The position numbers and the translations under genes are program-made. Below are positions 6,463 to 60,600 of a stretch of DNA of 64,000 nucleotides, one piece after another; within the stretch, counting starts at the first letter, position 1; each line of letters begins with the position of its first letter. Location: NCBI GenBank assembly GCA_964017185.1, contig OZ024875.1, forward strand, positions 42,687,486-42,751,485, read 5' to 3'. The notes under the pieces are model-generated. The model was not told the DNA's origin and ran no database searches. It was given only the letters and a program-made list of their open reading frames with translations. Source of the stretch: Rugalucina vietnamica (taxonomy: Eukaryota; Mollusca; Bivalvia; Lucinida; Lucinidae).

Positions 6463-6779
6463 ATCATACCACAGACAAATGTTTCATGAAACTAAATAGC
6501 AAACAGTGAATAAAGAACAGCAATTAGATATGCTCGTCTTTGTTTTCTCTGTTAATCCCAACTGAATTAAACTGGTTGCACAATATTTTGCTGTATCTAT
6601 AAACCTCTATGTATGGTAGTGCAGCTAGTAGCACTTCCAATTTGTGCTGAAAAGTAAGCATAAGTGATACAAATAAAGGAGCTCGTTGGAAATGGCATTC
6701 AGTTTGCCTATATTTTGAAATCTTGAAAAATACGGAAGTTATGACCATTACGTTTTTATAAAAGCATGATGTCATGTGC

Positions 6780-8566
6780 ACTCAACAAAATACCCAAGGT
6801 ATTCCCCCGTTGAAAAAGAGAAATGGAAGTGGAATTGCACAATCCGAATTTGAGAAGGCGGAAGAATTTAATGGTCAGTTCTCGGATGTTTTCACTAAAA
6901 GTGAATACAAACAGGTCCCTCTTATGGATAGATCTGCCCCATTCATGCATGATATTGTGGTCACAAAGGAAGGGGTGACCAAACTTCTCAAAGGTCTAAA
7001 CCCGTCTAAAGCCTTAGGGCCTGATGAGCTTCATCCCAGAGTCCTAAAGGAACTGGCTGTGGAATTAGGGCCGGTATTTGCCCATCTCTTCCAGCAGTCA
7101 ATTGATACAGGTGAAATTCCTAAAGAATGGTCTCTTGCTAATATTTACCCCCTGTTTAAGAAGGGCGACAGGTCACTTGCCCGCAATTACCGCCCTGTTT
7201 CTTTGACATGCATTCCTTGTAAGCTTCTTGAACATATTGTATGCTCAAATATTATGGCCCATCTTGATGAACATGAACTCTTGTCGGACAGGCAACACGC
7301 ATTTAGGAAATGGCATAGCTGTGAAACTCAGTTGACTACAGTGATAAATGACTGGGCCAAAATCTTAGACAAAAAAGGCCAGGTCAACACTTTTATACTC
7401 GATTTTGAAAAGGCTTTTGATACTCCTCCCCATGAACTCCTTAAAAGCAAATTGTTTAGCTATGGAATAGGTGGAACAACACTGAATTGGATAAATGCTT
7501 TCCTTTGTTTCCGACAACAAAGGGTAGTGGTTAATGGTATTAAATCGGATTGGGCTCCAGTTGTGTCGGGTGTCCCTCAGGGCACCGTTCTCGGCCCCTT
7601 GCTGTTTTCCTTGTATATAAATGACATCTCAGCAGACATTGAATCTGAAATAAGACTCTTTGCTGATGATTGTGTTTGCTATCGTGAAATCAAGAATGAA
7701 GAGGATACATTGAAACTTCAGAGAGACATTGATCGTTTAGGCAGTTGGGCTAGGAAATGGGGAATGAGATTTCAACCCGTCAAATGCAACATGATGCAGC
7801 TGACAAATAAACGGTCTAGTAAGATACAGGCTAACTACACCCTCGAGGGCACTTTACTGGAAAACGTTGAAAGCATAAAATACCTGGGTGTAACTATCAC
7901 AAATGATTTGAAATGGAATACTCATATTTCCAATGTCTGTACAAAGGCTAACAGAACTCTCGGATTCTTAAGGAGAAATTTGTATTCTTGTCCCCCAGAT
8001 GTGAAAGAAGCAGCTTATAAAGGACTGGTGCGGCCGGTCTTGGAATATGGAAGCTCAGTTTGGGACCCTCACACTCATGGCCTCCAGGAAGAACTGGAAA
8101 AGGTACAAAATCGTGCGGCAAGGTTTGTGACGGGAAATTATGTTTTTGAAACTGGGAGCATGACTGGCATTTTAGGTCAACTGAAATGGGAATCTCTTAA
8201 GAAAAGGAGGAAGGATAGTAGACTTATATTGCTATACAAAGGTCTAAAGGGTAAAGCCAGAATACCCACAGATGACCTTATCCCAAAGAATAGGCGTTGT
8301 AGAAATCAACACTCTTTGGCTTTTCAGATACCTTCAGCTAGCAAAGAAGCGTACAAAAGTAGTTTCTTTCCACAGACTATCAGGGACTGGAATGACCTCC
8401 CTGATTCACTTATCTCCTCTGCTGAAATGTCTGATGACTGTGTGTCCAAGTTCGCTACACTCGTGCGTTCAAGGGACTAATTTCTCCCCCATCCGAACCC
8501 CCTGGTGAAATAATGTCATTTGGCGTGTCACCAGTAAACTATTCAGATTCAGATTCAGAACTCTGA
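6780..8566 (+). mobile_element. 5'-truncated non-LTR retrotransposon (LINE), CR1/Jockey-type RT
   Basis: One open frame (6774-8480, 568 codons counted from an ATG that is probably host sequence) covers the reverse-transcriptase domain and the region after it, with no endonuclease, so the copy is truncated at its 5' end near 6785. RT signatures are all readable: GPDELHPRVLKEL, NYRPVSLTCIPCKLLE, the FILDFEKAFDTPPH box (first catalytic Asp), SGVPQGTVLGPLLFSLYIND and RLFADDC (the catalytic FADD). The C-terminal segment ends in the usual 'FFPQTIRDWNDLP' motif. The 3' end carries a short ATTCAG tandem tail at 8540-8558, as expected for target-primed insertion of this kind of LINE. The frame is unbroken, so the copy is fairly young. 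Confidence 0.9.
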
Positions 8567-17475: not shown

Positions 17476-18453
17476 TATATTCCAACACAAATCAAAACTA
17501 ACAGTTTTTCGAAATAAATCCATGCCACTTTGATCAATGAATAAAACACGTCTGTTCATCCTGATAAGCTAGAATGACTAAACTTTGTTATATTAAGGCT
17601 ATTTTGGAGAGTGTAACCCGAGATGGATACCATCTTGGCGTTTTCTTCTCTATTTTTATATTCATTTATCTAAAAGATCTAATCTGTTTCATTTTGTAAC
17701 TTTATGTGACAAATTGTTTGGTCAATATTTTTATCGCTTTTTAGAAGTGGGGCGTCCTTTGCTCAAAGGAAGATTGCAAATTAAGTATTCATTCTTTTTG
17801 TTTGGGTCGGACACGGGGTCAATGTCGGGTCCGCTTCAACACGATTTGGTTGCACGGTTGGTATAAGTATTGTTGTTATACGTCCTACTCAGCAGCTATG
17901 GTCAAATTGAGACGGGACCTCGGTTTAAAGTCTCACCCGATGATAAGCATGGGAAAAGCCTCACGACAAGGCACACGTGGCTTAAACCACTTAAGCTATT
18001 GAGGCTTCGGCATACGAATTGGAATTGAGACCTAGACAAATAGTTATGATAAAAACGGCATTCTCTTCTCATTAATGCAACAGCGTTTCTGTTTTCTTGC
18101 TTTGTTCCCTTCTTTCGGCATTGATAACTCTGGTTTGCCATATGTTTAGCCAGTTTTGATGCTAGACCAGCATACAGGAAGAGACTTTAAACCGAGATCC
18201 TGTCTTAATATGACATGTAGCTGTTTGGTGGGACGTAAACACCAACACAACAACAAATAAACTTTTTGAAATGTGAAAATCCGAGGCGTTGCAAGACTTA
18301 AAACTTCCCCATCGGGAAGTAATGTCGGAAAAATGAGACAGTAAAAATGCTCGCTGTTTCGATATTATTTAAAAAATGTTAAAGGCCGTAAGAAAAAATC
18401 CGACTCGGTAAAATTGTAGTAATATTAGTCTAGAATCAATATATCCAAGTTAT

Positions 18454-18677
18454 TGTTGTGAAACGTCTTGGACCGTTCACCGGTACAGTCGAGTAATCCG
18501 GGAATTAGTAGGACCAAGCGGTGCGAGGGTATAAAATGTAGTAGTGAAACGAGTACGCCTGTGCTGAAAAGTTGTGCCAAGGCAGTTTGGAAGCACTGAC
18601 AGATTCCTAAGCATTTTATGACCTCTTGCCGTTAGGTTCAAGGGTTCTTGATATGTAGTTTTAATAATTATACTTTA
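18454..18677 (+). repeat. 5' LTR (224 bp)
   Basis: Starts TGTTGTGAAACGTC and ends ATACTTTA. A TATA-like GGTATAAAATG sits near 18529, a likely promoter. Identical, as read, to 24076-24299. Confidence 0.92.
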
Positions 18678-18700
18678 TTGGCGACGAGGTTTTAAAGAAC
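18678..18700 (+). promoter_or_regulatory. Probable primer-binding site
   Basis: TTGGCGACGAGG directly follows the 5' LTR, where a tRNA primer would anneal in LTR retroelements. The tRNA is not identified. Confidence 0.5.
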
Positions 18701-19329
18701 CACCGGGGAAAGAGTTAAATTGCATTTTTTCCTTAAATTTTACCTGTTGAATTTTGCCGACCGGTGTCCAGGTAAATTTTTGGTCAGTTTGAAAGTGCAA
18801 TTTAGGGTTGAAAATAACATTCACAGCACACCTCTAGGTTAATGATAGTAATAATTCTTTGAATTATTTTTCATTTCTAGAATAATCAATATTTTTGATT
18901 GTTATTTTTTCGTGTTTTTGCTTTTTGGCATTTTTGTCTGGTAGTAAAGTAGAAATACGCCGGTTTCAAAATAGCAATTAGAAATAAAGCAAGTTTTCAT
19001 TAGAGATAAAAAACCTTTGAAAATTCGACCCATAAATTGTGAAATTTATTTTGATTTTGGTCGAATTTGGCGTAAAGAATTAGAGGTCAAGTTAACAAAA
19101 AGCTTAGGTCGGGTGAGGTCTTTTAGATCCACATTAATGTCAGTAATAATTTCTTATGGCAGTCATATTGACACATAAGTAACTTCCTAAACTGCAAATC
19201 CAGAAACAGAAAGCAGTCAGCAGCGCTCAGATACAACAACTGTCTCGAAAATTTCTGGAAATTGTTCATGCTGGGTTTTATAAATTCGCATTGAACTAGT
19301 TACAACACTTGTACCAAATACAGTGAACA

Positions 19330-21714
19330 ATGTCTGTCAACGTGAACACAGCATCTGCTCAAGAATTGCAGCAAGCATTGGCAAGAATAGGTGACATGGT
19401 GGCACAACTCATTCTTGACTTCAGACAGAAGTATGGCATTGTTAAGAGAGAAGCTGTCAATTTGGCTCTTCGCGGTAACCTGCCAACACAGATTCTTGAC
19501 CTGATGGATTTCTCGGAACCAAACCAGAATAATCCAGTTGAGAGAGACCTTCCCACTCTACCATCAGTTCCAACAACAAATTCATGGGAACCGGTGATGG
19601 CAGTTAACAGAAACCATCGATTACCTGGAAGGTCAGCGTCACCGGAAATAAATGGGTCAAGGTCACCCTCCTCTGAAGAAAAGCCAAGAAACCTTCCCAG
19701 TCTACCATCAGTTCCAACGACAAATCCATGGGAACCAGTGATGGCAGTTAATGAAAACGAGCAAGCATCTGAAAGGTCAGTGTCACCAGAAAGAAAGGGG
19801 TCAAGGTCACGATCCTCTGAAGAAATCTTGCTAGATTTGGAAAGGACCCTTGCCATGCTAAGAAGAGATGATGAAACCATGGGGGAAAATGAACTGTGTT
19901 CTTCTAGGACCGGTTTCTTGCAGCCAGTTGACAGGAAAGAGAAATGTAGTACAAGTGATACAACGAGACCATTGCCAGCAGACAGACATGACCAAAACAT
20001 CAAGCAAGAAGAAAATTCAAGGCTGTCTGCAAGAATTAAATCTGAGCCAGGTTTACATGCTGCTGAAGTATCAGAAGGCACCAAGAACTTGTCTAGATCA
20101 GCTCGACACAAGTCAAGGTCACCAGTGTCAAGGTCAGATACAAAGTCAAGGTCAGATAAGCACCCTTCAAGAAAAACTGATGATGGTGGAAAGAAGAAAT
20201 CACACCATGAAACTGAGAAGCAAGTTGGTCATCAGTGCAGATCCACCTCAAGATCACGGTCAAGGTCATCCTCAAGGTCAGGTTTGAGGTCGTCCAATGG
20301 ATCTAAAAGAAGGCGTCATGAGAATAGTGACTCAAAGTCAGACAGAGATAGACACAGTCGACATTTGTTGTCAAGGTCACCATCGAGGTCAGGGTCACAC
20401 CATAGATCCAAGAGGAGACGTTATGAGACCAGTGACATTAAGCATCACAGACAAAGACATAGTCGACGGTCAAGGTCAAAGTCAAGATCTCCTTCAAGGT
20501 CACAGTCAAGATCTCCTTCAAGGTCAAGGTCACATAGAAACAAGAGGTCAAGATCCAGGTCCAGATCACGTGACAGAAAAGGGTCAAGGTCTCATCATAA
20601 CAGGAAAAGGTCAAAGCCATATGACAGGAGGGAAAATTCAGGATCTTACGACAGGAAAAGGTCAAGGTCAAGTGACAGAAAACAGGAGTCAAGGTCACAT
20701 AGAAAAAGAAGATCTAGGAAACATTCATCTTCTTCTGAGTCGGCCACTTCTGTCGATCGACACCACAGACATGGAGATCCTCGGAAACACCCTAAACATT
20801 TACGTTATGATGGGAGGTCAAACTGGTTTTCTTTCGAGAATAAATTTAAAAGTTACAGAAAAGTCATGAAGTGGACAGAGACCCAAAGCAAAGATTATCT
20901 GATCTGGAGTCTTGAAGGGAAAGCCTTAGATTTCTTTGCATCATCAATAGATGTTGACCGATATTCTTTTCGAAAGATGATGAAGAAATTGGAGACAAGA
21001 TTTGGGGTGACAGACCTAAAAGAAACAGTGAAAGTGGAGTTTGACCATGCTTGTCAGGAACCAGAAGAATCTTTGGAAGACTGGGCTGACCGTGCTTGGA
21101 CATTGGCAACACATGCCTTTGCTGACCTGAAAGAGAAACACCAAGAGCAAGAGGCGATTTCTAAATTCTGCCAAGGGTGTATTGACAAAGTCGCAGCTAA
21201 ACATGCTTGTTTTGAGAGACCCTCAACCATGGAAGAAGCATTGGATCTTGTGAAATACCATCAATATATTTCACAAGCTGTGGATGGAAAGATGAACAGA
21301 AATGAAGATCTTTTGATAAATTCTATGGACTGTCTACCAGAAGGTTGTGTTCCGGCTAATACAGATTACTTTCTGTCAGAGCATAGAGTCGAGGAACTTA
21401 TTGCGACAGCTTTGCAGCAATTTGCCGAACGACTTCCGAATACAGTTAAGCCGAAGGAACTTGTAGACACCAAGAAGAAAAGAGCAGCGCAGTGCTTCTT
21501 CTGTAAGAAATATGGTCACATCAAAAGAGACTGCAGAGTGTACCAGGCATGGCTTAATAAGCGACAAGCAAGAGCTGAGCCTGAAAGAGCAGCGCAGTGC
21601 TTCTTCTGCAAGAAATATGGTCACATCAAAAGAGACTGCAGAGTGTACCAGGCATGGCTTAGTAAGCGACAAGTAAGAGCTGAGCCTGAAACTAGTGAAA
21701 GTTCAAGCAACTAG
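19330..21714 (+). CDS. Gag-like protein of LTR element (HhH-like, SR-rich, capsid-like, two CCHC knuckles)
   Basis: A 794-residue open frame. Residues 1-62 begin VNVNTASAQELQQALARIG and then ILDFRQKYGIVKREAV, a pattern that resembles ComEA-type helix-hairpin-helix DNA-binding segments. Residues about 72-120 and 121-168 are a tandem duplication (LPSVPTTNxWEPVMAVN). Residues about 256-490 are extremely SR/RS-rich, like splicing-factor SR domains. Residues about 490-653 are a retrotransposon gag capsid-like domain (YDGRSNWFSFENKFKSY, then LEGKALDFF). Near the C terminus two identical zinc knuckles CFFCKKYGHIKRDC (CX2CX4HX4C) lie in a 34-residue tandem duplication. The likely role is to bind and package element RNA into particles. 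The SR region and HhH-like start are unusual for a gag. It could be mistaken for a host SR protein, but its place between identical LTRs shows that it belongs to the element. Confidence 0.85.
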   Translation: MSVNVNTASAQELQQALARIGDMVAQLILDFRQKYGIVKREAVNLALRGNLPTQILDLMDFSEPNQNNPVERDLPTLPSVPTTNSWEPVMAVNRNHRLPGRSASPEINGSRSPSSEEKPRNLPSLPSVPTTNPWEPVMAVNENEQASERSVSPERKGSRSRSSEEILLDLERTLAMLRRDDETMGENELCSSRTGFLQPVDRKEKCSTSDTTRPLPADRHDQNIKQEENSRLSARIKSEPGLHAAEVSEGTKNLSRSARHKSRSPVSRSDTKSRSDKHPSRKTDDGGKKKSHHETEKQVGHQCRSTSRSRSRSSSRSGLRSSNGSKRRRHENSDSKSDRDRHSRHLLSRSPSRSGSHHRSKRRRYETSDIKHHRQRHSRRSRSKSRSPSRSQSRSPSRSRSHRNKRSRSRSRSRDRKGSRSHHNRKRSKPYDRRENSGSYDRKRSRSSDRKQESRSHRKRRSRKHSSSSESATSVDRHHRHGDPRKHPKHLRYDGRSNWFSFENKFKSYRKVMKWTETQSKDYLIWSLEGKALDFFASSIDVDRYSFRKMMKKLETRFGVTDLKETVKVEFDHACQEPEESLEDWADRAWTLATHAFADLKEKHQEQEAISKFCQGCIDKVAAKHACFERPSTMEEALDLVKYHQYISQAVDGKMNRNEDLLINSMDCLPEGCVPANTDYFLSEHRVEELIATALQQFAERLPNTVKPKELVDTKKKRAAQCFFCKKYGHIKRDCRVYQAWLNKRQARAEPERAAQCFFCKKYGHIKRDCRVYQAWLSKRQVRAEPETSESSSN

Positions 21715-21889
21715 GTGCTGGAGATCATGTCACACAAGAGGAGCTAATCGACTTATCGAAGTGCATATTGCTCTGACGGTAAAACAGATTGCGATGTAAA
21801 GTTATAGCTCAGGGAATATAGGTAGAACAACTGTGTGACATGTCAGATGGAAATGATATTTATAGCACCACACCACTGAGAAGATTCAA

Positions 21890-22442
21890 GGAAGGTACTT
21901 TTATTACCAAAACAGAGGGAATATTCCAGAAGAGGCTTATAGTTCCAGAGTGGAGACAATCCTTCCATTTAGGTACTTCTAGTACCAAGACAGATGAAGA
22001 TGGTTCCAGCTGGTACTTCTAGTACCGAACCAGATGGGGATGTTCGAGATGGGGCTTATAGCTTCAAAGTGGAGATGGTCCTTCCAGTGGGTACTTCTAG
22101 TACCAAGACAGATGAAGATGGTTCCAGCTGGTACTTTTAGTACCAAAACAGATGGGAGTATTCTAGATGGGGCTTATAGCTCTGAAGCAGAGACGATCCT
22201 TCCAGTGGGTACTTCTAGTACCAAGATAGATGAAGATTGTTCCAGTCAGTACTTCCAGTACCAAAACAGATGAAGATGGGGCTTTTAGTTCCAAAACAGA
22301 TGAGAATCTTCAACATGGTGTCTATAGTATCATTGCAGGCGTAATCCTTTGGTGGCACATCTTGTGCCAAAGTCGGGGATTTCAATGTGGTGCTTTTAGT
22401 GCCACAACAGTTGTGGAGTCCCAAGATGGTACTTCCAGTACC
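21890..22442 (+). repeat. Hairpin array 1: 13-15 covarying stem-loops, about 40-bp spacing
   Basis: Short hairpins recur at about 21972, 22012, 22052, 22090, 22130, 22170, 22208, 22248, 22278, 22317, 22353, 22389 and 22428, with two weaker ones before. Forms include GGTACTTCTAGTACC (6-bp stem, TCT loop; several copies), GGTACTTTTAGTACC, GGGGCTTATAGCTTC, GGCACATCTTGTGCC (perfect, different stem), GTGGTGCTTTTAGTGCCAC (8 pairs with two G-U) and GGTACTTCCAGTACC. Loops are always three bases (TCT, TTT, TAT, TCC). Linkers share CCAARACAGATGAAGATGG. Stem sequences differ but pairing is kept. Confidence 0.85.
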
Positions 22443-22689
22443 AAGGTAAATGAAATGCTCAAAAAATTGAGAAAAGGGACGAAAATGGAGGTTAATCTCT
22501 TTTCAACGAAAACCCACCAGTTGAGCATTTCCGGTGTGACCGCCTTCACAGCAGGGGTATATTACTTAAGTTTCAATGTGTTGCAGAAGATGGCCAGCCC
22601 GGGATGACAAGTTAGCACAAGGGTGGTAAAAGTTAAATTTGTGCAGGTGATATACAACACATTTCTGTAATATACATGTAGCTGTGATG

Positions 22690-23200
22690 GAAGAAATATC
22701 TGGCGATACAAGAAAAGGCAACGCATACCGAGACTCCTAGTCAGGCTCAGACATGCGGTGGGCTTGTAGCTCCAGCATGGGGTCCGGTATGAAAGTGTCA
22801 CCAGCAGATTATCAGCATTGAGAAGCTTCCGGCAGGTATGAAAGTTTCTCCAGTTTTACGTTGCCAAGTCAGATATCTGGAGATACAGGAAAAAGGCAAC
22901 ACATACCGAGACGTCAGGCTCAGACATGTGGAGGGCTTGTAGCTCTAGCATGGGGGCCCGGTATGAAAGTATCTCCAGCAGATAGCCAACATTGAGGAAC
23001 TTACGGCAAATATAAGAGTTTCTCCGGTTTAACGTTGGCAGGTCAGATATCTGGAAATACAGGGGGAAAGACTAGTCAGGCTCAGACGTGTATGTGGGTT
23101 TTTAGCTCCAGCATGGGGGCCCGGTATATATGTTTCCCTGGTAGATGGTCAGCATTAAGAGACTTCCGGCAGGAATGAAAGTTTCTTCACTTGCGGAGGG
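22690..23200 (+). repeat. About 165-bp tandem repeat, 3 copies, each with a GGGCTTNTAGCTC hairpin
   Basis: Units start near 22695, 22870 and 23041 with AGATATCTGGAGATACAGG-type sequence and include 'gtcaggctcagaca', a hairpin (GGGCTTGTAGCTC or GGGTTTTTAGCTC), 'agcatgggggcccggtat' and 'cttccggcaggtatgaaagt'. These continue the hairpin theme of array 1 at wider spacing. Single hairpins also lie near 23198, 23280 and 23341. Confidence 0.75.
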
Positions 23201-23459
23201 CTTTTAGCTCCAGCATGGTGGCTAGATCCAGATATCAAATTTAGCAGAAGAACCTATGATATGCCTAGAAATTCACTGTGGGCTTCTAGCTCCGAGATGT
23301 CAGCAGACATGTTGCCTTATTAACACATGCAATTTCTCGCGGGCTTATAGCTAGCACCTGCATATCAATAGTTCTTCAAGTGAGCGGACATGCTGTCTGT
23401 TCAGAGTTATTGACAAACCTGTAGTCAAATTTCCTTGGGCTTGTACATGTAGCTCAGGT

Positions 23460-23875
23460 ATGTGGGCTTCTAGCTCCTGTCCAGCCATCGACGAGAATGT
23501 GGGCTTCCAGTTCCTGTCCAGCCATTGACGAGAATGTGGGCTTCCAGTTCCTGTCCAGCCATCGACGGGTGTGTGGGCTTTTAGCTCATGTCCAGGCGTT
23601 GACGGGTGTGTGGGCTTTTAGCTCATGTCCAGGCGTTGACGGGTGTGTGGGCTTTTAGCTCATGTCCAGGCATCGACGGGTGTGTGGGCTTTTAGCTCAT
23701 GTCCAGGCGTTGACGGGTGTGTGGGCTTTTAGCTCATATCCAGGCATCGACGGGTGTGTGGGCTTTTAGCTCGTGTCCAGGCATCGACGGGTGTGTGGGC
23801 TTTTGGCTCGTGTCCAGGCGTCGACGGGTGTGTGGGCCTTTAGCTCATATCCATGTATCAACGCTACTATGCCAG
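23460..23875 (+). repeat. Hairpin array 2: 37-bp minisatellite, about 11 copies
   Basis: Copies of GGGCTTTTAGCTCATGTCC followed by AGGCGTTGACGGGTGTGT, with starts at 23575, 23612, 23649 and 23686 and on to about 23834 (exact 37-bp steps). Earlier, more diverged units at 23464, 23500 and 23539 read GGGCTTCTAGCTCC or GGGCTTCCAGTTCC. Each unit contains the 5-bp stem GGGCT/AGCTC with a three-base loop. A final hairpin TGGACTTCTAGTTCA lies at 23938. Confidence 0.88.
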
Positions 23876-24060
23876 AGTGTGGTGATGGCTCCAACAACAA
23901 AGGTCATAGGACTAGCGGTTTGTCAAGAAGAATCCAGTGGACTTCTAGTTCACAAGTTTCCTGGTAGACGTAAGCTATAACAAAGAGGTAAGGTATTTGT
24001 GCTTGCTTACAGCTGGTACATCTCTTTGATTCTCCCCACCATGCCGTTGGCCTTCAACGT

Positions 24061-24075
24061 TATGGTTGGGGGGAA
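24061..24075 (+). promoter_or_regulatory. Polypurine tract
   Basis: A G-rich run ending GGGGGGGAA abuts the 3' LTR, the normal place for the plus-strand primer of an LTR retroelement. Confidence 0.7.
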
Positions 24076-24299
24076 TGTTGTGAAACGTCTTGGACCGTTC
24101 ACCGGTACAGTCGAGTAATCCGGGAATTAGTAGGACCAAGCGGTGCGAGGGTATAAAATGTAGTAGTGAAACGAGTACGCCTGTGCTGAAAAGTTGTGCC
24201 AAGGCAGTTTGGAAGCACTGACAGATTCCTAAGCATTTTATGACCTCTTGCCGTTAGGTTCAAGGGTTCTTGATATGTAGTTTTAATAATTATACTTTA
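24076..24299 (+). repeat. 3' LTR (224 bp)
   Basis: Same sequence as the 5' LTR as far as I can read. It is followed by TTAT and then the rest of the host element's right arm. Confidence 0.92.
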
Positions 24300-24479
24300 T
24301 TATTTAGAATTTAATGCAAAACTGTGCATCGCGTGCACATTTAAACACAGGTACCCAAATATGCTGCAAAAACTTCCCGAAGGGGAAGCAAACCATCCCA
24401 TAATGCAATATAATCAATACCGGCATGCCTGTAAATACAACATCCTTCCGACTTCTCGTTCGAGAATTCTACCCGACTG

Positions 24480-25103
24480 TTAACTGTAATAGAAAACATT
24501 TTGTTATCTTTCTCTTTCTTCTCCCGCGCTGTTTCTTACACTACACCGGTTTTAGTAAATTTCATAGAATAGATTACACCAACACCGATGGTCACTTTAT
24601 ATTCAATAAAGTGGAGTCTTGGAGTGGAGTGGAGTGGAGTGGATTGGAGTCACAGATTCGACTGACAGTTTGTCTTATTGCTACTTACCAACCCTTAGCC
24701 CACCGCTATATGTAAGGTTGAAAAAAGTTATGAAGGGATGGGGGACTATTTTTTCTGTTGTGAGGTCCATAGGTCGGCCCAACCATTTGTACAGAATTCC
24801 TCTTTTACGGACATGACGTTCCTGGTCATAGTGCACACGAACAGGTGGGGTTATCAGGTCCTGTGCAACTTAAATCAGGATCACATTAATCCCCATCAAT
24901 TGGATGCCGATTATATTCAAAATTTTGTCAAGTGTGATAGCAAATCTAATCCAGGTGCAGATTTTGTCATGCATGAATGCCTTGATCCAGATCATGTTAA
25001 TCAGAATCAGTCTGATGCGGATTAAAGTGTCTTTCGTGAAGTCAGAAATCAAAGAAAAGACTGCAGTTATCCAATGAAATTTGTCAATTTGAAATTTCGA
25101 CAT
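24480..25103. other. Intergenic sequence with GGAGT repeat
   Basis: No gene recognised. A pentameric GGAGT tract lies at about 24615-24650. Farther right is a diverged duplicated phrase around 'aatcaggatcacattaatcc' and 'gatccagatcatgttaatca' (24875-25023). Confidence 0.4.
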
Positions 25104-51344: not shown

Positions 51345-53191
51345 AAATAATAGAAGAGACCGACAAATTCTAGGTGTAAATAATTGAAGCCATGGAATTT
51401 TCTATCAAGTCAATGAAACTAAACCGTCTTTTCTGGTTAGTAAGAGAGACTGACATATTCAAGGTGTAAATAAATGAAGCCGGTGAACATCCTATCTAGT
51501 CAATCAAACTTAGGCGACTCTTCTTGTTAGTAAGAGAGAACGACATATTCTAGGTATGAATAATTGAAGTCGATGAACATTCTTTCTGGTCAATTAAACT
51601 AAACCGACTCTTCTGGTTGGTAAGAGATACCAATATTGTATATGTAAATAATTGAAGCCGGTAAATTTCTATCTGGTCAATCAAACTAAACCGTCTTTTC
51701 TGGTAAGTAAGAGACACCAACATATTCTAGGTATGAATAATTGAATCTGATGAATATTCTTACTGGTCAATTAAACTAAAGTATCTCTCCTGGTTAGAAA
51801 GAGAGACAATATATTCAAGTTCTAAATAATTGATGCCGATGAAGAAACTAAACCGCCTTTTCTGGTTAGGAAGAGAGACAATCTATATTCAAGTTCTAAA
51901 TAATTGATGCCGATGAAGAGTCTATCTGGTCAATCAAACTAAACTGCCTTTTCTGGTTAGGAAGAGAGACCGATATATTCAAGTTCTAAATAATTGATGC
52001 CGATGAAGAGTCTATCTGGTCAATCAAACTAAACCGCCTTTTCTGGTTAGGAAGAGAGACCGATATATTCAAGTTCTAAATAATTGATGCCAATGAAGAG
52101 TCTATCTGGTCAATCAAACTAAACCGCCTTTTTCTGGTTAGGAAGAGAGACCGATATATTCAAGTTCTAAATAATTGATGCCGATGAAGAGTCTATCTGG
52201 TCAATCAAACTAAACCGTCTTTTCTGGTTAGGAAGAGAGACCGATATATTCAAGTTCTAAATAATTGATGCCGATGAAGAGTCTATCTGGTCAATCAAAC
52301 TAAACCGTCTTTTCTGGTTAGGAAGAGAGACCGATATATTCAAGTTCTAAATAATTGATGCCGATGAAGAGTCTATCTGGTCAATCAAACTAAACCGCCT
52401 TTTCTGGTTAGGAAGAGAGACCAACATATTCAAATTCTAAATAATTAAATCTGATGACCAGTCTATCCGGTCAATCAAACTAAACCGTCTTTTCTGGTTA
52501 GGAAGAGAGACCGACATATTCAAGTTCTAAAAAATTGATGCCGATGAAGAGTCTATGTGGTCAATCAAACTAAACCGCCTTTTCTGGTTAGTAAGAGAGA
52601 CCGACATATTCAAGTTCTAAATAATTGAAGCTGATGACCAGTCTATCTGGTCAATCAAACTAAACCCTCTTTTCTGGTTAGGAAGAGAGACAGACATATT
52701 CTATTTGTAAATAATTGAAGCTGATGAACAGTCTATCTGGTCAATCAAACTAAACCGTCTTTTCTGGTTAGTAAGAGAGACCGACATATTCTAGTTCTAA
52801 ATAATTGATGCCGATTAAAAGTCTATCTGGTCAATCAAACTAAACCGCCTTTTCTGGTTAGTAAGAGAGACCGACATATTCTAGTTCTAAAAAATTGATG
52901 CCGAGGAAGAGTCTGTGTGGTCAATCAAACTAAACCGCCTTTTCTGGTTAGGAAGAGAGACTGACATATTCAAGTTCTAAATCATTGAAGCTGATGACCA
53001 GTCTATCTGGTCAATCAAACTAAACTTTTTTTTCTGTTTAGGAAGAGAGACCTACATATTCTATGTGTAAATAATTGGTCAATCTATCTGGTCAATCAAA
53101 CTAAATTCTGGTTAGTAAGAGAGTCTCCGACATATTCTAGTTCTAAATAATTGATGCCGATGAAGAGTCTATCTGGTCAATCAAACTAAAC
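51345..53191. repeat. 90-bp minisatellite, about 20 units
   Basis: Unit phrases: CTATCTGGTCAATCAAACTA, AACCGCCTTTTCTGGTTAGG, AAGAGAGACCGATATATTCA, AGTTCTAAATAATTGATGCC, GATGAAGAGT. Steps are 90 bp (for example 52191 to 52281). The outer units are diverged and the middle ones (about 51890-52400) nearly identical, the usual sign of unequal exchange. The array resumes at 55109 after a hAT-like insertion. No open frame or promoter is evident. Confidence 0.92.
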
Positions 53192-55108
53192 CAGAGATGG
53201 GGTCAATTACTTTTGAAAGTAATGAATTACATTACCATTACATTGCATTTTCTTCATTACCATTACCATTACCATTACACCCTTTTTAGAAAAGTAATCA
53301 TTACCATTACCATTACATTGGAAATGTAATCATTACCATTACACATTACTTTTTGTCCCGATATGACCGACTTGTCCCAATATGGCGGATTTGAACAAAG
53401 TTCACTTTGGACTAAACATACAATTACAAGTGCCTCACATTATTAAAACATGGTGTTAAATTTCTATACTGATACCTTACCAAAAATGAGTGTACTGGAC
53501 AAATTCTCCCTCAGACATTTGCCCCAATTTGAAAAAGGATGTTTGCGGATATCTGCCGCACACCAACTTAGGAGAAGGTTAGACATATTAAAACAAGACT
53601 GTCTGCAACTGCTTCTTTGTGCAACAAATAAAAAAGTTAGATTTGTAAAATCTGTTTATAGAGGAATATCTTAATTCTTTTGAAATTCTTTTTCTTTATT
53701 CATGTAAGCTGACTATCAAATAAGAAAGGACTGTTTCACAAAAACAAATTATCACTGGATGAAGTTGTTTAATGTGTTTAATATGATGTTTTGCTTTGAG
53801 TTAAAATCAATTTTCATTTTTATTAAAGTTAACTTTCATGTTCTTGTATGCACAGCTAACTTGTTTTATGTTTTTGCAAGATTGAAATTGAAGCCCCTTG
53901 TGACTTTATAGACTGATTCATGTGTGCATCTGTCAAACAATGTATCAGGGTAGTCTTTAATTTGAGTTAATCTTGAGGAACTGTTTTCACACTTTGCAAA
54001 CTCTTTTGTTCTACTTTGTCACCTTTTGTAACAACAGAGTAGATTATTAAGGTTGATTTAGATAGATTGCTTTAGAATTGAATTGTACCATAGTGAACAA
54101 TAATAAAAAAATATTACCTTCTGGGAATATGGGCCACAACGTGACAAAATGTACCTTCGGACAATTATTTGAGTATTAGAAAAACAAAGTTACGCTGAAT
54201 GTCTGATGTTTCTAGAGTCTGTTACTCTTTATTTGACCCGATTATTTCATTTATTTTGTGAGTTATGACCAATTTACTGTATGAACCCTACAGACGTCAT
54301 TGTCCTGAAAAATGACGTCAAAGTTGCGTAATGCATTTCTGCATGTTAGCAGAACTTACAAAACTCGATGCATTTGCTTAAAGCTGTTTAAGCACTGGTC
54401 AGAACCTATTGCTAAGATAGAAGCACACTATCCTAACCGGCAATCTGTCGTAATTATTTTGTGTATTTTTATGATGATGCGGTTGCTATGGTTACCATTT
54501 AACGATACATATAGGGAAATTATGTGTATTATGGGCTAAAACAAGGGCAGATAACTCAAAATATTGACAATAGATATGTTTTAAAACTCGTTCATTTGGT
54601 AGCCCAGTGTTCAAAGATTACAAATACAGTGTTATTTCTGAAACGTATATTACATCATTTTCCCCGCTTTTTTCTGCTTTCTACTAATAATGTCAGAATG
54701 TCCGAAGGTACATTTTGTCGCGTTGAGGTTCATATAGGATCTTTAAATCCTTAATCAACAATAATATTGTTTTTCATCAACATCATCATCACAACTGTTG
54801 TTCTCTTTGTTTCTAACATTATATAAATTTACAACTTGGTGAAGAAAATGTATTTGGTTATTCATTTGCTGTTGAACCTAATGCACAGAATGTGAAGTTG
54901 TAGAAGCTGTATAATTTTTGATATACAAAGTAATGATAATGTAATGAGAAGTAATGGTGGCATTACAGGCATTTTTTCAATTGTAATTCATTAAATTACC
55001 ATTACTTGTAATGATAAAATCCTTCATTACACATTACTTTTCATTACTTTGAAATTTGTAATGCATTACAATGCATTACCATTACACATTACCATTACCC
55101 CATCTCTG
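53192..55108. mobile_element. Non-autonomous hAT-like transposon, 1917 bp, inside the minisatellite
   Basis: Ends CAGAGATGGGGTCAATTAC and CATTACCCCATCTCTG are inverted and flanked by an exact 8-bp duplication AACTAAAC (53184-53191 and 55109-55116), the hallmark of hAT elements. The subterminal zones are dense in ATTACCATTACC / GTAATGGTAATG words, likely transposase-binding repeats. No transposase is encoded; a 74-codon frame at 53450-53674 has no recognisable motif. Confidence 0.92.
54131..54740. mobile_element. Inverted-repeat element nested in the hAT-like transposon
   Basis: GACAAAATGTACCTTCGGAC at about 54139 and its reverse complement GTCCGAAGGTACATTTTGTC at about 54700 are terminal inverted repeats of roughly 35 bp. 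The interior has CRE-like TGACGTCA at 54313 and no transposase. Flanking words ATATG / CATAT may belong to the ends or be the target. Confidence 0.7.
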
Positions 55109-57491: not shown

Positions 57492-59414
57492 TTAGTAGAT
57501 TTCTCCAGTTTGGTATTTTTGGTCCCCCATGTATCTGTCATACATGGTTTTAAAGCTCAGAACTGTAGATGTGTTCACCATATCATCTGGCAACGCGTTC
57601 CACTTATCAATAACTCTGACACAAAATGAATTTTGTCTAAATGATTTCAAAGCTCTTGGTTTAACTAACTTTTTACTATGGCCACGTGTGTTTAAGTCTG
57701 AGAACTCGAAAAAATCTTCCATTTTCACATCATCTATGTTGTGTATAATTTTGAAAACCTGTATCATGTCCATTCGATATCTTCTGTATTGTAGTGTTGT
57801 CAGATTTAACATTCGTAATCTATCCTCATAGCTGAATTGAGCAAGCTCAGGGAGCAGTCTCGTAAGTCTTCTCTGAACATTTTCAAGGGCACGTATGTCT
57901 TTCTTTAACATTGGAAACCAAACAGTATTGCCATAATCGATTATTGGTCTGATGATTGTTTTGTACAATATCAATAATGTTTCTTCATCAAGGTATGAGA
58001 AGGCACGTTTGATTAATCCCACTAGTCTATTAGCTTTGTTTACTGTCAGGCTTATATGTTTATCAAATTTCAAATTCTCCTGTACATGAACTCCCAGATC
58101 TTTTTCCAATTCAACCGATTTTAATACTTTGGTGTTTCCATCTCTGTCTGTCATTTCATATTCAAATCTTGGATTGTCTTTACCTATGTGCATCACTTTG
58201 CATTTGTCAACATTAAACAACATAAGCCATTTTATAGTCCACTGACACAGTTTAAGATCATTTTGAATAGTGTCAAAGTCTTCGAGATTTTGTAAGTCCT
58301 TGTATAGTTTTGCATCATCGGCAAAAAGACGACAATAAGAGTCAACTTCCTCTGGCAAATCGTTCACAAACATGATAAATAACAGGGGTCCCAGGACAGA
58401 ACCCTGGGGTACTCCACTTGAGACGTCTGTCCATTCAGAAGATTGGCCATTTATTACCACACGTTGTAGTCTATTAGACAGGAAATTTTCTATCCATTTC
58501 AAGACATTTCCGGATATTCCTAACTTTTCTAGTTTCAACAGAAGGCGTTTGTGCGGGACGCTGTCAAACGCCTTCCGAAAGTCGAGAAACACTGTGTCGA
58601 CGGGTACATCTGAGTCAATATATTTAGACCATGAGTCGAAAACTGTCAATAGTTGTAATATACATCCTCTTCTCTCTCTAAATCCAAATTGGGCATCTGT
58701 AAATATGTTATTATCTTTACAATGTTCCATGACTGCATTTTTTATGATACTTTCTAACATTCTACATAATATACTGGTTATACTTATAGGCCTATAGTTT
58801 GAAGATTTCGTTTTATCACCACTCTTGAAAATACTGGTTACATTTGCCAGTTTCCAGTCGCTGGGCAAGATACCCTCACTGAGAGATTTATTAAACAGTA
58901 TCATGATTGGATATGAAATATTGTCAGCTGTTTCCTTTAAGAACTGTGGATGAAAATTGTCAGGTCCTGTGGATTTGGATACATTCAGTGCTTTCAATAG
59001 TGATTTCACTTTGGTTTCTGTTACAACAATGTCACTTATTGAACTATCTGTTTTTGATGAAAAGTCAGGTAATTCATCATCCTCTTCCTTTGTAAAAACT
59101 GAACTGAAAAACTCATTTAGTTCAGTAGCTTTGTCTTTGTCATTTGTAATCCACTCTCCTTTGTCATTCTTTAAATCACTTATACCAGTTCTAGTTTTAG
59201 TTTTACTTCGTACATACTTCCAAAATGATTTGGGGTTTTCTTTTACTTCAAGTGATATTCCTCTTTCAAATTTTCTTTTCGCATATCTGACACTCCTAGT
59301 TACTCTATTCCTTATTCTACAATAATCCAAGTAGTGCTCCCGATTTCTGGAGTAAGAATATTTCTTCCAGGCTTTGTACTTTTCCTCGACCAATTTCAAA
59401 CAATATTTGTCCAT
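57492..59414 (-). CDS. LINE reverse transcriptase (ORF2, RT part)
   Basis: 640 open codons. It begins just after the endonuclease/RT linker (WMDKYCLKLVEEKYKAWKKY) and carries the full RT palm (FLDFRKAFD and FADDAK supply the three catalytic Asp), thumb and C-terminal domain. It copies the element RNA at the nicked target in the nucleus. No internal stop, so the copy is young. Confidence 0.92.
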   Translation of the reverse strand: MDKYCLKLVEEKYKAWKKYSYSRNREHYLDYCRIRNRVTRSVRYAKRKFERGISLEVKENPKSFWKYVRSKTKTRTGISDLKNDKGEWITNDKDKATELNEFFSSVFTKEEDDELPDFSSKTDSSISDIVVTETKVKSLLKALNVSKSTGPDNFHPQFLKETADNISYPIMILFNKSLSEGILPSDWKLANVTSIFKSGDKTKSSNYRPISITSILCRMLESIIKNAVMEHCKDNNIFTDAQFGFRERRGCILQLLTVFDSWSKYIDSDVPVDTVFLDFRKAFDSVPHKRLLLKLEKLGISGNVLKWIENFLSNRLQRVVINGQSSEWTDVSSGVPQGSVLGPLLFIMFVNDLPEEVDSYCRLFADDAKLYKDLQNLEDFDTIQNDLKLCQWTIKWLMLFNVDKCKVMHIGKDNPRFEYEMTDRDGNTKVLKSVELEKDLGVHVQENLKFDKHISLTVNKANRLVGLIKRAFSYLDEETLLILYKTIIRPIIDYGNTVWFPMLKKDIRALENVQRRLTRLLPELAQFSYEDRLRMLNLTTLQYRRYRMDMIQVFKIIHNIDDVKMEDFFEFSDLNTRGHSKKLVKPRALKSFRQNSFCVRVIDKWNALPDDMVNTSTVLSFKTMYDRYMGDQKYQTGEIY

Positions 59415-60534
59415 CCAAGGAGGTTTCGGCTTTTTTTGGATTTATTTCTTTATGAATAGGAATTGTTTCATTCACAATATGGTTTACATGTTCTGAGAAA
59501 AATTGCCAGCTGGCTTCAAGGTCCATATCAAGCATAGAACTCCAGTTTATATCTGACAGTTTTATGTTGGCATTAACATAATCTCCTTTATAATAGTTTC
59601 TCTTCTCTGTATATGAGTGTGGTCCAATTCTGGGAAAGGTCAATTCAATTTCAATACTCAAATGATCACTACTCCCAAGTCTTGTAGTAATTTCAATGTT
59701 TTTAATGATATCAGAGTTATTAGTTACACAGAGATCTAAAACATTTCCAGGCTGATCATTCACCCATCTCGTTGGCGAAACAACAGTTTGTTCCCAAAAA
59801 TTGTCTCTTAAACACTCAAGAAATTTATATGAGATGTGATTTTCACTCTTACTGGTAGTCCAGAGCTCCCAATTTATTTCTGGCATATTAAAATCTCCTA
59901 ATACAAGAACATTGGAGAATTTAGTCTCTTTGGCTTTATGTAACAAGTCTAATAATAAGTCATTGTTTTCATAATTGGATTGGGGACTTCTATATACTCC
60001 TCCGACTAAAAAAGTATCTGTTTTACTCAACTGTATGTTCACCCACACACTTTCAGAAAATATATGGTTTGTCAACTCTGTATTTAGTGTAGATGAAATA
60101 TTGTCTTTCACATAAATTGCAACACCTCTACTATTGTCCATGACGTTAGAGCGATATAAAGTATAGTTTTCTATCTGAAGCTCTTCTGCCGTTATATTCG
60201 TTGATTTTTCAGTTTTAGGGTAAATTTCAGTGATTATTAAAATGTCTGGTGAAATAAGTTCAATTCTTACTTTCAGTTCATCCAGTTTAAACAACAAATT
60301 GTCTGCATTAGTATAATACAGTGACAAGCCTTCTCTACTTCCCTTGAACTGTAAATTAATGTCATTTTCATTTACCGAATCATAAGACAAAGTACTTTCT
60401 TCTTCACTTCCCATTGATTCATTTTCAGTATCTGATATTTCTGATAAATCCGACTCATCTTGACCGTTTTCATCACTAACATTGTCAATACCACAATCAT
60501 TTGATAATATGAAATAGGCACGCCTAATGGGCAA
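59317..60534 (-). CDS. LINE AP-type endonuclease (ORF2, N-terminal part)
   Basis: 405 codons open, but the first in-frame start is not an ATG, so the true beginning may be altered or lie in another frame near 60572. An acidic N-terminal leader of about 75 residues precedes the endonuclease domain. It should nick target DNA to prime reverse transcription. It ends in the RT frame overlap after the A7 run. Confidence 0.85.
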   Translation of the reverse strand: MPIRRAYFILSNDCGIDNVSDENGQDESDLSEISDTENESMGSEEESTLSYDSVNENDINLQFKGSREGLSLYYTNADNLLFKLDELKVRIELISPDILIITEIYPKTEKSTNITAEELQIENYTLYRSNVMDNSRGVAIYVKDNISSTLNTELTNHIFSESVWVNIQLSKTDTFLVGGVYRSPQSNYENNDLLLDLLHKAKETKFSNVLVLGDFNMPEINWELWTTSKSENHISYKFLECLRDNFWEQTVVSPTRWVNDQPGNVLDLCVTNNSDIIKNIEITTRLGSSDHLSIEIELTFPRIGPHSYTEKRNYYKGDYVNANIKLSDINWSSMLDMDLEASWQFFSEHVNHIVNETIPIHKEINPKKAETSLDGQILFEIGRGKVQSLEEIFLLQKSGALLGLL

Positions 60535-60600
60535 CCAACCAATCTATCAGGATACCGCACGCTTGAATTCATGATTTTTGTTGCTTAACCAAATGAACAA

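Follow-up and report, generated by a model that had tools for sequence, protein, structure and literature searches.

Covarying triloop hairpins between gag and the 3' LTR of a pol-less retrotransposon: a candidate multivalent RNA element

What fills the interior of a long terminal repeat (LTR) retrotransposon that has kept gag and has no detectable pol? This question is raised by an element at positions 18454-24299 (+ strand; 5846 bp from LTR to LTR end) of a 64-kb stretch of Rugalucina vietnamica contig OZ024875.1, which in its full length is called the window here. An earlier note had described the element as gag-only, with an array of short hairpins in place of pol whose stems carry compensatory changes. 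The gag-only layout stands: the LTRs are identical, TTAT is read on both flanks, Gag is intact, and no pol domain was found among the open reading frames (ORFs) tested, the six short ORFs of the hairpin region having no Pfam match at the curated cut-off. Coding by the repeats is not indicated either, their periods of 37 and 118 not being multiples of three. The hairpins, triloops, and spacing are also present, and sequence statistics establish the hairpins, their pairing under substitution, and a lean toward the sense strand. We tentatively favor the reading that the region is a multivalent cis-acting RNA element, with sites in the sense RNA whose likeliest partner would be the element's own Gag.

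The region holds 33 hairpin units at 21894-23952 that fall into a common 15-base register and comprise 24 distinct 15-mers. Their shared motif is NGNNCU-UNY-AGNNCN (NGNNCT-TNY-AGNNCN in DNA). The first loop base (position 7) is T and the third (position 9) is T or C in every unit; the second (position 8) is free, being a pyrimidine in 26/33. A U-A pair closes the loop in 29 units, G2 is kept in 32 and C14 in 30, a G3-U13 wobble is found in 22, the outermost pair is unpaired in 8, and G occurs in the loop of 2. Across pairs 2-6, 126 of the 165 cells are Watson-Crick, 34 are G-U, 3 are A-C, and 2 are other combinations. The stems quoted in the earlier note do pair, but with wobbles: one in GGGCT/AGCTC, one in TGGACT/AGTTCA, and two in GTGGTGCT/AGTGCCAC. 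Its claim that the loop always has three bases holds for the 33 units, but the unit at 23436 has nine loop bases; this unit and a decayed relic near 23875 (recognized by eye) stand outside the 33. Spacing is exactly 37 bp for 11 units as described, and the 38-40 bp given for the first array applies to 11 of its 14 spacings, the full range being 30-40 bp before a gap of 331 bp. Units in the sparse middle part lie 61-173 bp apart, and the 37-bp array is G/T-rich.

The array is real and above chance. Between 21715 and 24080, we counted 8 Watson-Crick stems of at least six pairs with a three-base loop, compared with 0.57 expected from dinucleotide shuffles. Among loop lengths from 0 to 10, length 3 stood out and length 5 did so to a lesser degree (3 vs 0.52); we read the five-base-loop stems as three-base-loop stems whose inner pair has opened. 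When G-U pairs were allowed, length 3 led again (24 vs 9.2 in shuffles), and lengths 5, 7, 9, and 10 were also above shuffles.

We quantified the tendency of the two arms to change together with a column-shuffle test on a 33-row alignment (28 distinct rows). Pairing was seen in 92.9% of 168 cells compared with 76.5% after shuffling, two-sided changes in 28 cells compared with 9.4, and the covariation score was 0.518 compared with 0.220. None of 500 shuffles was as high in two-sided changes or in score, and none matched the observed pairing or pair types. Sliding the partner by 1-3 columns left 26-50% pairing and a best score of 0.109. Changes on both sides occurred at 4 of the 6 pairs, with clear cases in unit 22354, where GGCACA/TGTGCC compared with GGTACT/AGTACC has two pairs swapped, and in unit 23938 (TGGACT/AGTTCA). 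Because related units inflate column shuffles, we also joined the 24 distinct hairpins by a minimum spanning tree and, as a null, re-evolved them along it without regard to pairing, at the observed number of changes per branch and transition share. This is a rough tree with minimal branch lengths. The observed pairing, 0.958 at pairs 2-6, compares with null means of 0.65-0.81 depending on root and model (P 0.00025-0.00055). Since the 33 units had partly been picked by pairing, we repeated this analysis with the 15 units of the first array, which are fixed by spacing, and obtained 0.950 compared with 0.73 (P 0.00015-0.00035). The two-sided changes claimed at the outset are therefore above the column-shuffle control on four of five measures and above the tree-based null. 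For the first array and for the differences between stem classes, structural selection appears to be the better explanation, as judged from a single copy of one element. That the arms tend to change jointly suggests a function for the RNA shape, which might serve a protein as a series of docking sites.

In some units, the right arm can form a second triloop hairpin with the segment just downstream (21943-21955, 22062-22074, 22180-22192, 22402-22416, 22769-22783, 22943-22955, and 23106-23118). A switch between the overlapping hairpins is possible. In the 118-bp repeats, the second hairpin had two two-sided changes, a number equalled in 113 of 500 shuffles and by a slid control, and it was not retained.

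Two kinds of evidence bear on which strand would be read. G-U outnumbers A-C by 34 to 3 in the cells of pairs 2-6, a lean to the sense strand, and the isolated hairpins are stabler in sense in 29/33 units and in antisense in 2 (means -5.6 and -3.1 kcal/mol), many of them being tandem copies. With 70 nt of context, 19 of the 33 form with a probability above 0.5 in sense and 12 in antisense. Taken together, the array leans to sense RNA, not conclusively. The asymmetric loop, with T7 and Y9 fixed and position 8 free, is as would be expected for a single-stranded loop read in one orientation. A strict form of the motif (pairs 2-6 paired), searched on both strands of the window, was found 26 times: 24 times in the array, once in the leader, and once in gag, with none on the minus strand, in either LTR, or outside the element. 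In shuffles of the 3035 bases of leader plus gag, the strict motif averaged 0.017 occurrences and appeared at least twice in 1 of 2000.

On the reading of the region as a cis-acting RNA element, each unit would fold in the sense transcript into a short hairpin whose triloop is UNY and whose loop-adjacent pairs, C-G and U-A, are mostly conserved. Each hairpin would offer one weak binding site, and ~35 such sites along the RNA would supply avidity. Gag, with its duplicated zinc knuckles and arginine/serine-rich (RS-rich) basic stretch, would be the likeliest partner. Three points make it the natural choice: the element encodes it, it has two knuckles and an extended basic, RS-rich region, and an element without pol gains from having its own RNA chosen. 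The element's RNA would then be picked for packaging in competition with that of a putative helper supplying reverse transcriptase and integrase. We infer each of these steps, from transcription and protein binding to Gag as the partner, packaging, and the helper element. The main alternative partner would be a host RNA-binding protein for export or stability. A partner in RNA export is possible by analogy with the CERV protein, which serves Cer1 genomic RNA in export (PMC10309623).

A bolder form of this proposal, which we regard as unlikely, is that the space of pol has been turned into an RNA landing platform, on which ~35 covarying sense triloop hairpins would nucleate the element's own RS-rich, double-knuckle Gag and so out-compete the helper for packaging and enzymes. 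If true, the platform would be a retrotransposon counterpart of packaging-signal-mediated virus assembly.

The wider interest of the array lies in the choice of LTR retrotransposon RNAs for packaging, which lacks a precise definition even in Ty1 and Ty3 of yeast (PMC4974528). A natural set of several dozen kindred sites, present in an element that supplies Gag itself and has to borrow everything else, would open RNA selection and parasitism between retroelements to direct tests in vitro.

A considerable number of observations weigh against a Gag-binding sense RNA. Known retroviral zinc knuckles prefer an exposed G, which only 2 of the 33 loops have. Counted as changes on the tree, wobbles and A-C pairs number 8 and 3 (P ~0.11 by hand). 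Arm composition accounts for most of the A-C rarity at pairs 3-4 and for much of the wobble excess: it predicts G-U at 0.21 and A-C at 0.03 in the first array, where 9/30 and 0/30 were observed, and 0.40 and 0.04 over all units, where 29/66 and 0/66 were observed. Only a modest number of hairpins, 12/33 in sense and 6 in antisense, form with a probability above 0.5 in 200 nt of context. The earlier note had proposed folding on both strands. In tiles, z-scores of the sense strand from 21754 to 24153 range from +0.3 to -3.0 with 2/8 passing -2, 2/8 antisense tiles of the hairpin region pass as well, and the lowest sense tile of the element (-3.2) lies in the leader. In the column-shuffle test, 54 of 500 shuffles did as well in the number of pairs with two-sided change, and the 11 units of the 37-bp array contain zero two-sided changes. 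Stems of this array vary less than its linkers (0.069 vs 0.177), but the outer pair (0.327) and the loop (0.255) vary more. Hairpins of the 174-bp repeats are conserved at 13/15, 13/15, and 11/15 positions, no better than the linkers at 81%, 74%, and 76%; the consensus fold of these three repeats uses other pairs, without the motif hairpin. RNAalifold on the 118-bp repeats prefers pairing between units for two of their three units. The leader and gag copies of the motif had already been noticed in looser searches before the strict test was set, and the looser motif was found there 2 times, compared with ~1.7 expected by hand from the plus-strand density outside the element. Lastly, no second copy or relative of the element was taken from the viral and prokaryotic contig matches, among which only one viral contig (L103) was inspected closely.

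Neutral repeat expansion is the rival that fares best, although we consider it doubtful. Stalling of reverse transcriptase or replication at hairpin-forming DNA or RNA would duplicate units, and template switching in imperfect palindromes would copy one arm onto the other, creating paired changes without selection. Much of the element is tandemly duplicated (144, 24, and 105 bp in gag, followed by 118, 174, and 37 bp), and the parity of hairpins and linkers in the 174-bp repeats is in its favor. So is the shuffling of linkers and hairpins relative to each other. In the first array, unit 22317 combines a left linker typical of GGGGCT-type units (z 7.3) with a GGTGTC/AGTATC stem, and unit 22278 combines a right linker typical of GGTACT-type units (z 6.1) with a GGGGCT/AGTTCC stem; linker matches are weaker for units 22428 and 22389 (z 3.8 and 3.7), and unit 22354 has no clear linker class. 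Such separation of linker type and stem class is compatible both with paired stem changes and with recombination at hairpins. However, palindrome repair should yield perfect pairs, which the 34 G-U cells and the common G3-U13 wobble are not. The earlier note had left the choice between selection on structure and gene conversion between complementary strands; paired changes are indeed above both nulls, but conversion fits less well because palindrome repair should remove wobbles, yet many are kept. Neutral expansion also leaves unexplained the invariant loop U and Y and the isolated full motifs in leader and gag, and the motif persists in seemingly unrelated linkers (23279 and 23340, by eye). 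Were the array neutral, it would show plainly how the mechanics of copying can yield paired changes without selection, a point of importance for covariation tests applied to repeats.

A less probable rival treats the units as boxes of duplex DNA, that is, inverted repeats with a 3-bp spacer that would be bound by a dimeric host transcription factor or insulator protein. Inverted repeats spaced by 3 bp recall steroid-receptor sites, the near-constant G2 and C14 would suit such boxes, and when arm composition is taken into account, G-U exceeds A-C only weakly. There is also a published precedent in the high-copy palindromic boxes of plant Sireviruses, found in 13 elements at 8-32 copies, some with intervening bases, and discussed as possible regulatory sites (PMC2829016). 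These boxes are the nearest sequence precedent, sharing with the present array a high copy number (at least 8, here 33 units with an asymmetric center), short inverted repeats with a common core, and a location in noncoding parts of an LTR element. This precedent raises the DNA explanation and makes many inverted repeats in an LTR element less novel. The differences are that Sirevirus boxes are found both in LTRs and upstream of env, make up CpG islands, and have a mostly CGG-CCG core with 0-4 intervening bases (our reading of Table 3 in PMC2829016), whereas the units here have a fixed asymmetric three-base loop and wobbles, lie 3' of gag, and are accompanied neither by LTR boxes nor by a CpG island (CpG observed/expected 0.50 at GC 0.47 in the hairpin region, and 0.19 in the first array). 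The gypsy insulator of Drosophila likewise places a degenerate array of binding sites, 12 for Su(Hw) within 460 bp, inside an LTR element (PMC7800606), but in the 5' untranslated region rather than 3' of gag, and the excerpts of that paper do not describe hairpins. Against this rival, the center of the motif breaks dyad symmetry in 33/33 units (T7 with T9 or C9), as is more readily understood for a loop than for a site bound by a dimer. The mismatches lean to G-T over A-C on the sense strand, beyond the tree null with P=0.033 in the first array and 0.096 over all units, and duplex DNA would not favor this. Strict matches are absent from the LTRs and from the rest of the window outside the element on either strand.

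Two further rivals are far weaker. It is very improbable that the units are splicing decoys, in which a 3'-splice-site-like CUUNYAG would titrate or mislead the splicing machinery so that genomic RNA is exported unspliced, perhaps together with the RS-rich Gag. In most units the core does fit YYNYAG with the free position at N, and Gag has its RS-rich stretch; however, no long pyrimidine tract was seen by eye before the core, the AG is located in the stem, and units 22354 (GGCACA-TCT-TGTGCC) and 23796 lose the AG but stay paired. Slightly more improbable still is that the units attract, as decoys or as targets, a Roquin-type decay factor of the host, which binds hairpins and reads those with triloops. 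For such a factor, many copies of a short stem with a triloop would be apt, but Roquin elements have a YRN loop on a C-G closing pair, whereas here the middle loop base is mostly a pyrimidine and the closing pair mostly U-A, and no Rfam family matched at the curated score.

For a cis-acting RNA element, the closest functional parallels are viral packaging signals and yeast retrotransposons. In MS2 and other viruses, many degenerate stem-loops sharing a recognition motif are dispersed along the genome and linked to capsid-protein binding (PMC6281560); the present units resemble them as multiple stem-loops with a common loop motif, differing in that they are clustered in tandem. For Ty1 and Ty3, Gag is presumed to recognize its own RNA by cis-acting sequences. 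Those of Ty1 map to the 580 nt nearest the 5' end without a precise definition, and the cited account of RNA packaging mentions no hairpin array (PMC4974528).

By layout, the element is most readily compared with other LTR elements that lack pol. TR-GAG elements are plant terminal-repeat retrotransposons with a GAG domain that have a gag ORF, no pol, and an intact LTR structure. The likeness lies in the LTRs, primer-binding site, polypurine tract, intact gag ORF, and lack of a detected pol, with help presumably provided in trans; the differences are the animal-like window and the hairpin array in the place of pol. LARDs (large retrotransposon derivatives) have a long noncoding internal domain, and a conserved RNA secondary structure has been ascribed to noncoding LTR elements (LARDs and TRIMs; PMC7215508). 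However, LARDs encode no protein, whereas this element has an intact 794-aa gag, and the LARD excerpts contain no description of a tandem array of short hairpins (PMC7215508). At 5846 bp, the element is also outside the <1 kb limit given for TRIMs (PMC6934838). We found no hairpin array of this kind in an LTR retrotransposon in the literature searched, which mostly did not cover subscription journals.

Database searches returned few leads. A search of Rfam, including its ribozyme and retrozyme families, with 18000-24800 at E up to 1 gave no match at the curated score, the sole match being IS009 inside gag at 18.9 bits relative to a threshold of 117. Gag gave 5 pattern matches in viral contigs, none of them a relative by tblastn. 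The 15-mer GGTACTTNTAGTACC occurred in at least 120 stretches of viral contigs, and a two-unit hairpin pattern occurred in none. Three-unit patterns occurred in at least 118 stretches of prokaryotic contigs and in 6 and 5 of viral contigs. Among 249 fetched loci, each of the fifteen best has 6-8 hits to the motif, which for the most part are near-identical to one another inside a locus. The L103 viral contig was considered as a relative and rejected: its seven near-identical GTACTTGTAGTAC palindromes lie in long repetitive open frames and are read as coding repeats.

The features of the element are collected in Table 1. Its insertion is recent, since the LTRs are identical. The identical block comprises 226 letters, the last two of which we take as chance agreement with the target-site duplication. 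We take the primer-binding site to be the complement of the 3' end of tRNA-Ser.

Table 1. Features of the retrotransposon by position in the window.
Feature	Position	Strand	Basis or remark
Target-site duplication TTAT	18450..18453 (left), 24300-24303 (right)		TTAT read on both flanks
5' LTR, 224 bp	18454..18677	+	Identical to 3' LTR
Primer-binding site TGGCGACGAGG, directly after 5' LTR	18679..18689	+	Sequence
Isolated full-motif hairpin, leader	19116..19130	+	Outermost pair not formed
gag ORF, 794 aa, intact	19330..21714	+	Single long ORF of the element
Isolated full-motif hairpin, inside gag	19897..19911	+	Outermost pair not formed
Arginine/serine-rich basic stretch of Gag	20090..20750	+	Translation; limits by eye
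Duplicated zinc-knuckle segment, 105 bp x 2, 97%	21479..21691	+	Repeat scan and zf-CCHC
First hairpin array, 15 units, partly a 118-bp higher-order repeat	21894..22442	+	Motif listing, repeat scan
Sparse middle, 6 hairpin units, first three in a 174-bp repeat	22759..23354	+	Motif listing, repeat scan
Variant unit, same stem, nine-base loop	23436..23456	+	Outside counts
37-bp array, 11 successive units at exactly 37 bp	23463..23847	+	Extended sense-strand stem, G-U rich
Last hairpin unit TGGACT-TCT-AGTTCA	23938..23952	+	Motif listing
Polypurine tract GGTTGGGGGGAA, before 3' LTR	24064..24075	+	Sequence
3' LTR, 224 bp	24076..24299	+	Identical to 5' LTR

Gag matches zf-CCHC of Pfam in two stretches (E 4.3e-8), and the best sequence match in the PDB was a Copia virus-like particle protein across the knuckle region (E 0.0084). 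The one pointer to a Ty3-like (Metaviridae) placement is a weak PNMA match at 21.1 bits, under the 25-bit cut-off, no pol having been found. The N-terminus matches the helix-hairpin-helix family HHH_3 above cut-off (aa 3-39, 19336-19446; E 9.1e-7), which we would not expect in a Gag. AlphaFold2 (AF2) single-sequence models gave one long helix at the HHH_3 match with low confidence (aa 1-90, mean pLDDT 62) and a poor model for aa 475-794 (mean pLDDT 38). Tandem duplications within gag comprise 144 bp x 2 (19543-19825), 24 bp x 2.6 (20470-20532), and the knuckle segment of 105 bp x 2 at 97% (21479-21691). Because gag too carries tandem duplications, the element as a whole is prone to them.

Elsewhere in the window, there is one ORF for a DNA-repair metallo-beta-lactamase, one that is OTU1-like, and two for reverse transcriptase. 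The window is eukaryotic, and its gene content fits an animal. The reverse-transcriptase ORFs lie at 6762-8480 (+) and 57492-60543 (-), with RVT_1 matches at E 8.5e-35 and 2e-32; the second is preceded by an endonuclease ORF, and we read both as non-LTR. Tandem arrays are found at 257-1547, read as 192-bp units (5 copies, 597-1547) and 382-bp units (3.4 copies), and at 51355-53192, where a long array of 90-bp units has 5.5 copies at 77% followed by 15.1 at 89%.

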